From Massilia sp. PAMC28688 (lineage in GTDB: Bacteria > Pseudomonadota > Gammaproteobacteria > Burkholderiales > Burkholderiaceae_D): a stretch of DNA of 64,000 bases. The number at the start of each line of letters is the position of its first letter. Positions within the stretch are counted from its first letter, which is position 1. The stretch covers positions 496,001 to 560,000 of the forward strand of contig NZ_CP080378.1 of assembly GCF_019443445.1 (NCBI RefSeq), read 5' to 3'. Made by a program: the position numbers and the translations under genes. Under the pieces are notes generated by a model that saw nothing but the letters and a program-made list of their open reading frames with translations, was not told the origin of the DNA and searched no databases. This document shows, piece after piece, positions 43,476 to 45,447 of the stretch.

Positions 43476-45086
43476 TCAGGCGGGCAGCGCCGCCAGCATG
43501 CCTTCTGCTATCCACAGCCGGAAATTGGCCGCCACATCGAACTGCTCGTCAAGGTCGAAGGCGGCGTCCAGCGCCTCGCCCAGCGTGGCGTGCTGCGCCA
43601 GCTGCGCCAGGGCGGCGTGGGTCGATGCGCCGACCGGCACGACTGCACTGTTCCAGCGCGGCCGCACCACGGCGGCATGGCTGGCCACCTCCAGCTGCTC
43701 CGGAAAGTCGAACCCGCTGCCGGGCTGGTGCGCCTGCCACAGGGGCACCACTGCCCAGCGCGATGCGAACAGGGCGCATGCCGGATGCAAGGGCAACCCG
43801 GTGGATTCGATCTGCTCCGGGGTCAGCGCGGCCAGCGCTGCCATTCCCAGCGCCGGCGCGTCAGCTGCGTAATGGGCCCGGTGCAGCAGCCATTCCAGGC
43901 GCGCCATGTCGGGCAAATACGGATAGTCGGCCACGTGCTCGAAGCTGGCGAGAAAGTCGGCAAAGGTGTGTCCGAACTGATTCAGGTCCGGATGCGCGGA
44001 CGGGTGGGCGCGGCCATAGGCCCGCGCCAGCGCCGTAAAGAATTCTTCACCCATCAGCGCGCGCACCACGGGAAAGGCTGCCGACAATGCCTTGTCCCAG
44101 CTCGCCGTCAGGTTGCCACGGTATAGCCCAAGGCGTTCCGGGTTGCCCTTGAGCCGGGGCAGCACGCGCATGTCGTGGGCAATCAGGGCGTCTGCAAAGT
44201 CGGCCTGGATGGTGGACCCATAGGCAAGCGACGCCTGGACCGGCAGCGCCGCGCGCGGGCTTGCAAGGGCCGGCGCGGCGTCCCGGGCCATTACCCGGGC
44301 CTTGGCGGCTTCGCCCAGCAGTACTTCGAGCGGCGGAATGTCGGTATCCCATTCCACCAGCGTCGGTACCGCCCCAAACCGGCCCAGCGCCGCCTGGTAG
44401 AGCGACCATACTTCGGGCGCGACCGCCGCCCCGTGATGGTCGACCAGCGCCAGCGGCGTGACCAGATGGCCCGCCACGTGGATCTCGCCCACGCTGCCGG
44501 GCGCGATCGCGGCGAGCGCGGCCAGCGCATCTTCTCCGTGATTGCACTGGTTGACGTACAGGTTGTTCACGTCGAGCAGGAGGGCGCAGCCGGTGCGCTG
44601 CACCAGGGCCGCCATGAATTGTGCCTCGCTCATGGAATCGGCATGGAAACGCAGGTAGGCGGAGACATTTTCAAGCAGGATCTGGCGCCCCAGCGCATGT
44701 TGTACGCGGTCGATGCGCCGGCACAGCAGGTCGAGGTGTTCGTCATCGAGGACGATGGGAAGCAGGTCGTGCAGCTGGCGCCCCTGGACCGCGCCCCAGC
44801 TCAGATGCTCGGAAACGAGCATGGGCTCCACCCGCTGCACGAGGGCGCGCACGTTCTCGAGATGGGCGTCGGAAAAGCCACGCGCCGATCCCAGGCCCAG
44901 GCCGACGCCGTGCAGGCTGAAAGGATAGTCGCGCCGCAATTGCTGCAGCACGTGCCAGTCCCAGCCGGAAGGCGTGAGGAAATTTTCAGTATGGACTTCG
45001 AGCCAGTCGAGCGCGGGCCGCTGCTCGAGAAACTGGCGATAGTGGGGAGCGCGCAGGCCCACGCCCACGCGCATGGCGTGTTCCAT
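43476..45086 (-). CDS. Fused bufferin maturase: MNIO (BufB, DUF692) plus BufC (DUF2063)
   Basis: 536 residues from ATG 45086 (GCAGGGG just upstream; ATG 45074 possible). Residues about 7-275 are DUF692/MNIO, the multinuclear iron oxidative enzymes that modify peptide cysteines. Likely metal ligands: E30-V-H-T-E34-N, H59, E93-H94 in VSEHLSW, E139-N140, D172-V-N174, H203 and H207 in EIHVAGH, and E245-W-D247. Residues about 290-385 are the DUF2063 N-terminal domain ([69 protein letters not shown] end), the BufC/MbnC-like partner that delivers the precursor. In known systems these are separate genes; here they are one chain with a linker of about 15-20 residues. The substrate gene is 17 nt upstream. 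Confidence 0.88.
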
Positions 45087-45103
45087 CCCCTGCCCCGCCG
45101 TAC

Positions 45104-45376
45104 TTACTTGCTCTTTTCGAGCTTGCCGCCAGCCTTGACGCACGTACCCTTTGGAACGGCCTTCCATTCGTTGGGGTCATTGTCCACCTTGGCCTGGCCG
45201 GCGCAGGAATGCGAGCCGTTGGCGCTGCCGCAGTCGTTCTGGCCAGCCTTGGCCACGCCATAGCATTTTTCCGTCTCGCCTTTGGCTTCCTTGTGCGGTT
45301 CGGCATACGCAACACCGAGGGTGCCCACGCACAGACCAGCCAGTGCTGCTGCGATCACAACTTTACGCTTGTTCAT
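45104..45376 (-). CDS. Bufferin precursor (BufA1, DUF2282), copper-binding RiPP
   Basis: 90 residues from ATG 45376 with GGAG upstream. Signal peptide to about residue 25 ([20 protein letters not shown], ending AYA|EPHKE), then a short Cys-containing core with C38, C49, C58 and C79 in [19 protein letters not shown] and PKGTC. This is the DUF2282 pattern. Family knowledge: MNIO enzymes convert some of these cysteines to copper-binding thiooxazoles, and the exported peptide buffers copper in the periplasm. The maturase follows directly. No DoxX-like BufD or anti-sigma/sigma pair lies in the cluster. Confidence 0.88.
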
Positions 45377-45419: not shown

Positions 45420-45447
45420 ATATTACCTGATGCTGGCCCATTATCAA
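45420..45447 (-). promoter_or_regulatory. Candidate promoter of the bufferin operon
   Basis: On the minus strand TTGATA (45442-45447), 16 bp spacer, TAATAT (45420-45425), about 43 nt before the precursor start. The -35 is strong, the -10 moderate. Bufferin operons in other bacteria use ECF sigma factors, so this match may be coincidental. Confidence 0.4.

Follow-up and report, generated by a model that had tools for sequence, protein, structure and literature searches.

A window of 64,000 nucleotides (nt) from Massilia sp. PAMC28688 (contig NZ_CP080378.1, assembly GCF_019443445.1) carries a bufferin locus in which the maturation enzyme, a member of the MNIO family, and its partner protein are encoded as a single chain. 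The evidence supports its reading as a minimal Buf1 locus whose MNIO and partner form one protein and, on the strength of sequence comparison, this fusion is real, common in the family to which the strain belongs, and has evolved repeatedly. The precursor gene bufA (45104..45376, minus strand) encodes a 90-amino-acid (aa) Buf1 (DUF2282) protein, and it is followed after 17 nt (45103-45087) by bufBC (43476..45086, minus strand), a single 536-aa frame that joins the MNIO enzyme to a partner of PME type 1. The order is A-B-C, with B and C sharing one frame. The original prediction had given the coordinates of the locus correctly and had left out the strand.

The claim that a DUF692/MNIO domain is joined to a DUF2063/BufC domain in one 536-residue chain was confirmed by the Pfam search proposed with it. 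PF05114 (MbnB_TglH_ChrH) matches residues 7-266, the BufB half (44289..45068, minus strand), with 332.8 bits against a cut-off of 25, and PF09836 (DUF2063) matches residues 293-379 of the same chain, the helical part of the partner half (43950..44210, minus strand), with 84.8 bits against a cut-off of 27.2. The NCBIfam model MNIO_BufB (NF050167) is also matched, with 351.5 bits (cut-off 310), while the NCBIfam HvfC model gives 52.8 bits on the second half, below its cut-off of 142. The start at 45086 is a choice that appears in keeping with the lengths of the homologues; an alternative in-frame ATG at 45167, which would give 563 aa, overlaps bufA. In an alignment of 123 fused proteins, N174, D216, and H218 are invariant and probably correspond to N175, D242, and H244 of HvfB. 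H59, H94, E139, H203, and E245 are invariant as well and presumably have roles at the metal site. A fold search with the partner half gave matches to TglI (over model residues 4-251) and to 3DEE (35-252), and a sequence-profile search of this half against PDB chains returned nothing up to E 1. The modelled partner half appears to consist of DUF2063 plus an RRE-type domain, which places it in PME type 1. Between the halves lies a linker (44211..44288, minus strand; residues 267-292) where the structure model is least confident (block mean 64 at residues 281-290) and whose length varies among relatives: the stretch equivalent to residues 266-293 comprises 26-69 residues in 120 fused proteins, and in a collection of loci from named organisms the domain ends lie 10-94 residues apart.

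The BufA product matches PF10048 (DUF2282) with 88.9 bits (cut-off 22.4), and its mature cysteines C38, C49, C58, and C79, all four given in the original prediction, are each Cys in 75 of 75 aligned precursors. The four residues are thus present and conserved, but not all of them are to be expected as targets of modification, because in Buf1 bufferins the modification falls on the central cysteines and a disulfide links the first to the last (PMC12452194). The putative Sec-type signal peptide, read by eye as MNKRK, a hydrophobic stretch, and AYA (about residues 1-25), contains an additional cysteine, C16. In an alignment made up mostly of close relatives, its first half (R4, A9, A11, L12, A13) is 93-100% conserved, nearly as much as the mature core, and residues 19-34 are variable. 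According to preliminary evidence, the recognition sequence includes the signal peptide (PMC12452194), and the conservation agrees with this.

How widespread the fusion is was assessed first of all within the family, where 267 of 392 sampled genomes match the chain. By hand count, it is fused in at least 160 of the 392, the genome of the window included; this number comprises 144 uninterrupted matches over both domains and 16 loci that are fused by profile where the variable linker breaks the match. The 144 leave out G276 and G243, which have an internal stop, and G108, which is partially covered; among the 16, L087 runs off its contig. In the collection of named organisms, 80 loci were kept, 59 of them fused and 21 split, a biased rate given that the scan was seeded with fused proteins. 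The fused ones belong to Massilia, Duganella, Rugamonas, Janthinobacterium, Pseudoduganella, Telluria, a Herminiimonas metagenome-assembled genome (MAG), and a few other MAGs, and the split ones to Undibacterium, Solimicrobium, Paraburkholderia, Burkholderia, Cupriavidus, Formosimonas, Rhodocyclaceae, and others. A Buf1 match lies directly upstream in each of the 59 fused named loci, and the MNIO half precedes the partner in every fused locus classified. Two genomes were met twice (L094 = L164, L013 = L111). The contrast drawn in the original prediction, between this fusion and the separate B and C genes of known systems, holds as regards the reality of the fusion, but the arrangement is not exceptional in the family, and several other lineages have it too.

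These counts also bear on whether the long frame might stem from an error of sequencing or assembly, or be an isolated readthrough resembling a pseudogene. Split and fused loci can indeed look much alike: in 7 of 64 loci classified as split (L026, L029, L033, L053, L057, L063, L069), bufC lies open in the frame of bufB right after its stop, little different from a fused gene. However, the number of fused family genomes and named loci, together with the conservation of coding sequence on both sides of the variable linker, leaves such an artefact with practically no probability, and it was rejected on this conservation. The recurrence of the open two-domain frame in the species compared is far beyond chance, which rules out the frameshift or sequencing error that the original prediction had named as one possible refutation.

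The fusion is also found in Arenicella and other lineages. Relatives of the fused protein of family f94 include, among the matches listed, Hylemonella, Hydrogenophaga, and a Polyangiales MAG, and of its best 120 relatives out of 1646, 107 have both Pfam domains and 13 the MNIO domain only. Such listings of homologues (the best 120 of 2720, 7746, and 1646) give no frequencies, candidates shorter than 0.55 of the query length, and hence most lone MNIOs, being excluded from them. The f94 fusion itself (L194:5488-8426, minus strand; genome G482) is a natural MNIO-DUF2063 fusion directly followed by a gene for a sigma factor of the extracytoplasmic function (ECF) type and then by a DUF3379 gene. 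Another fused locus, L158, comes from a contig in a MAG that bears the label Acidobacteria.

The phylogenies indicate that the fusion arose several times independently. On a tree built from the MNIO domains of 42 fused and 64 split loci (106 in all), from which the duplicate L001, L096 (broken frames, from a 48% complete genome), and L103 (at a contig end) had been dropped beforehand, the fused state changes 5 times, gains and losses being counted alike, and at least 4 of these changes are forced by well-supported branches. A more careful tree of 88 rows (21 fused) requires 6 changes, at least 4 of them forced, and none of its 200 bootstrap trees, from a bootstrap not quite settled, has a single change. 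For this tree, 28 rows (near-duplicates and the long branch L002) were dropped by hand and 10 of 12 newly fetched loci added, L208 and L209 staying out. A single fused clade was rejected by the approximately unbiased test (p 2.27e-41), the group having been named after the first tree was seen. Within the family, a tree built on both domains (58 rows) needs 3 changes, and one origin for the main group together with L081 and L082, without L094, is compatible with the MNIO tree (p 0.376).

In most of the 21 split named loci, inspection by eye shows a plausible bufC start that overlaps the end of bufB or lies directly against it. Joining the two genes is a small step because they overlap or abut, sometimes in the same frame, and the fusion would most likely have come about by a small frame change or the loss of a stop at such a junction. 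The ease of this mutation favours a neutral origin, in which two genes that overlapped, and were probably coupled in translation, became one whose product acts like the separate pair without any gain. The wide variation of the linker points in the same direction, as does the persistence of the close split sisters L097 and L099, whose MNIO domains are 62-65% identical to that of the window protein. On the other hand, the fusion recurs in distant lineages and has been kept through a large clade, and an engineered HvfB-HvfC fusion gives markedly more product than co-expressed HvfB and HvfC (PMC13419390). Neutral joining is given somewhat less than an even chance, and the odds that the fusion brings an adaptive gain are put at about one in two.

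The product of bufBC is, with high confidence, a bufferin maturase, and it is only slightly less probable that the whole locus makes a Buf1 bufferin with a single-chain maturase of ordinary chemistry. The locus contains the precursor as well as the MNIO and the DUF2063-RRE partner, and a single conserved frame encodes the latter two; this is a known enzyme with a known partner, and ordinary chemistry in a new arrangement. By analogy with the family, the RRE half would hold the precursor in the cytoplasm by its signal-peptide region, and the iron site of the MNIO half would oxidise the two central cysteines to thiooxazoles. The product would then be exported by Sec, and the mature protein would chelate excess periplasmic copper. 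If the engineered HvfB-HvfC protein is a guide, joining the halves would fix their ratio at 1:1, keep the partner docked, and favour the active mixed-valent di-iron state.

Several points weigh against this assignment. The product of the second MNIO gene of the genome, described below, could conceivably act on this precursor too, although no gene for a DUF2063 partner adjoins the second MNIO gene. Outside the family, just 5 of 67 classified loci are fused (4/56 and 1/11: three f145 genomes, one f94, and one f99), rates that are biased because the loci were chosen for good matches or long frames, and the fusion is evidently not needed, as most of the loci classified there keep two genes. For the f94 fusion (L038/L194), a scan of 1.5 kb found no Buf1 match, so fusions of this kind may not always act on a Buf1 precursor. 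Finally, the original prediction held that a fusion would show which faces of the two proteins meet. The structure of the whole chain was predicted, as it had suggested, and both halves are placed confidently with a predicted template-modelling score (pTM) of 0.90, which is a measure of confidence and no proof of docking; the interface between the halves stays at the level of a model.

The founding description of the bufferins is said to be that of Leprevost et al., in PNAS in 2024. In Caulobacter vibrioides, B and C are presumably separate genes. The bufABC locus of this bacterium has in common with that of the window a DUF2282 precursor, an MNIO BufB, a DUF2063-RRE BufC, and the order A-B-C (PMC12452194, which speaks of enzyme and partner genes). 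The closest counterpart of the fused chain is an engineered HvfB-HvfC protein (PMC13419390, a preprint of July 2026), an oxazolin-forming enzyme with the same order, enzyme and then DUF2063-RRE partner, in one chain. That fusion is man-made, has no linker, and serves a precursor of the EGKCG type, whereas the one described here occurs naturally, with its two domain matches about 26 residues apart, and lies beside a Buf1 precursor. According to the same preprint, HvfC is needed for the mixed-valent iron state and the pairing of HvfB with HvfC is weak. MovX and ChrH, which it lists as exceptions, resemble the window protein in combining a catalytic MNIO with an additional domain in one chain, although neither is described there with a DUF2063-RRE partner. 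The TglH-TglI and MbnB-MbnC complexes (8HI7, 7FC0/7DZ9), by contrast, consist of two chains and deal with other precursors and modifications.

In the available text of PMC12452194, a survey of about 14,000 MNIOs that mentions fusions of the MNIO-nitroreductase, Buf1-cytochrome, MerC-Buf, and EF-hand types, no MNIO-DUF2063 fusion was found named. The same holds for the available parts of PMC12668002, which reports more than 24,000 MNIO-PME1 loci, and of its journal version PMC13097082, and such a fusion is not mentioned in the accessible portions of PMC13174530, PMC12141560, PMC12538549, and PMC12710340. The main text of PMC13419390 contains neither 'naturally' nor 'natural fusion'. Within the accessible literature, no description of the natural fusion was found, and an earlier mention is possible; databases already give such proteins names like 'MNIO family bufferin maturase'. 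Many named species of Massilia, Duganella, and Janthinobacterium possess natural single-chain maturases, which have evolved several times. As 1:1 complexes that need no assembly, these proteins lend themselves to structural, spectroscopic, and kinetic studies of how partners activate MNIO enzymes, and the split sisters L099 and L097 permit a direct comparison of what fusion changes. Nature has repeatedly made the construct that enzymologists engineered.

Among distinct precursors, 79 of 89 from fused loci have the cysteine in the signal peptide (C16 in the window), compared with 2 of 59 from split loci. Similar proportions are seen in the named set (57/60 fused, 0/15 split) and in both sets together with identical sequences included (89/100 and 2/60). 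In the main fused clade this cysteine is close to fixation, as seen across the precursors of L110-L189 and L004-L109. Since the only two split precursors that have it belong to L097 and L099, the nearest split sisters, it marks the clade and not the fusion. A more ambitious idea takes the natural joining of MNIO and partner as a convergent solution to a weak contact between the two, one that restricts the active mixed-valent iron state; the cysteine would then be a contact or redox handle that keeps the signal peptide on the tethered partner and delays Sec export until the core is modified. This seems doubtful: besides the two split sisters that possess the cysteine, the Arenicella, L094, and L082 precursors and a few from the main clade lack it.

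As regards the extent of the locus, it had been predicted that no DoxX or sigma-factor gene would be present. Indeed, the DoxX model finds no match in the whole genome (one contig, 5.46 Mb), and no sigma factor was found among 11 distinct neighbouring open reading frames (ORFs), a subset of those of the window, scanned with Pfam. Rfam gives no match at the locus. The description of the locus as minimal thus stands, although minimal loci are one of two types, 39 of the 59 fused named loci being without a downstream DoxX gene and 20 having one. In the Buf1 loci of PMC12452194, DoxX is counted among the core genes and sigma/anti-sigma genes are found, neither of which was found here. The same source elsewhere places DoxX 'in many' loci, and it is hence not treated as required.

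The two types also differ upstream of bufA. The motif TGTAAG-N16-17-CGAC occurs there in 19 of the 20 fused named loci with DoxX (L110, L111, L112, L115, L119-L121, L128, L132, L133, L137-L139, L143, L147, L148, L150, L161, and L164) and in none of the 39 without it, compared with 10 of 3750 shuffled upstream regions, the motif having been picked from the same upstream regions before counting. The exception, L144, has a one-base variant by eye. Among split loci with an upstream region (6 of the 21 had none extracted), the motif is present in 2 of 9 with DoxX (L167, L187) and in 0 of 6 without, which speaks against a general rule linking motif and DoxX. On well-supported branches there are 3 independent motif/DoxX pairs (sign test, median p 0.25). 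The resemblance of the motif to an ECF-type promoter is a lead only. A one-seed search of the relatives for a sigma factor, a weak test, found none, nor did a Pfam scan of 90 of the 126 ORFs listed as neighbours of the 20 fused loci with DoxX, as judged from 25 of 45 families listed. The window lacks the motif; upstream of bufA it has a consensus match to a sigma-70-like promoter, TTGATA-16-TAATAT (45420..45447, minus strand), one site in the region scanned against a mean of 0.4 in shuffles. The absence of the ECF-like motif might suggest that the locus serves another metal or stress instead of copper, as might the gold-induced 'gig' operons, which are bufferin loci, and the existence of MerC fusions (PMC12452194). 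This is improbable in view of the fully conserved four cysteines and the conserved Buf1 core of the precursor, and of the role of the Caulobacter Buf1 bufferin in copper stress (PMC12452194).

A profile search of the genome finds one DUF2282 gene and one DUF2063 gene, the latter being bufBC. A redundant partner elsewhere was considered and PF09836 finds none, a partner too diverged for this model, for example the 202-aa ORF next to the second MNIO, being possible. The second MNIO gene (C1:1192516; PF05114, 169.7 bits) lies outside the window, in L192:5436-6937 (C1:1192435-1193936), and overlaps a 202-aa ORF that matches no Pfam model and may be a type-2 partner. When the whole model of the fused chain was compared with viral models, no convincing match across both halves was obtained, the best being to an unnamed 575-aa protein (E 1.4e-07, template-modelling score 0.34, root-mean-square deviation 22.3). 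The neighbours of the locus in the window are, by Pfam, fumarase, DUF883, MobB, T2SSB, and FimV_N. Because the same families recur near the DoxX-bearing fused loci (among the 90 ORFs, fumarase 6-7 times, DUF883 6, MobB 5, T2SSB 8, and FimV_N 2), the comparison suggests that the DoxX-bearing and minimal types occupy the same chromosomal place.
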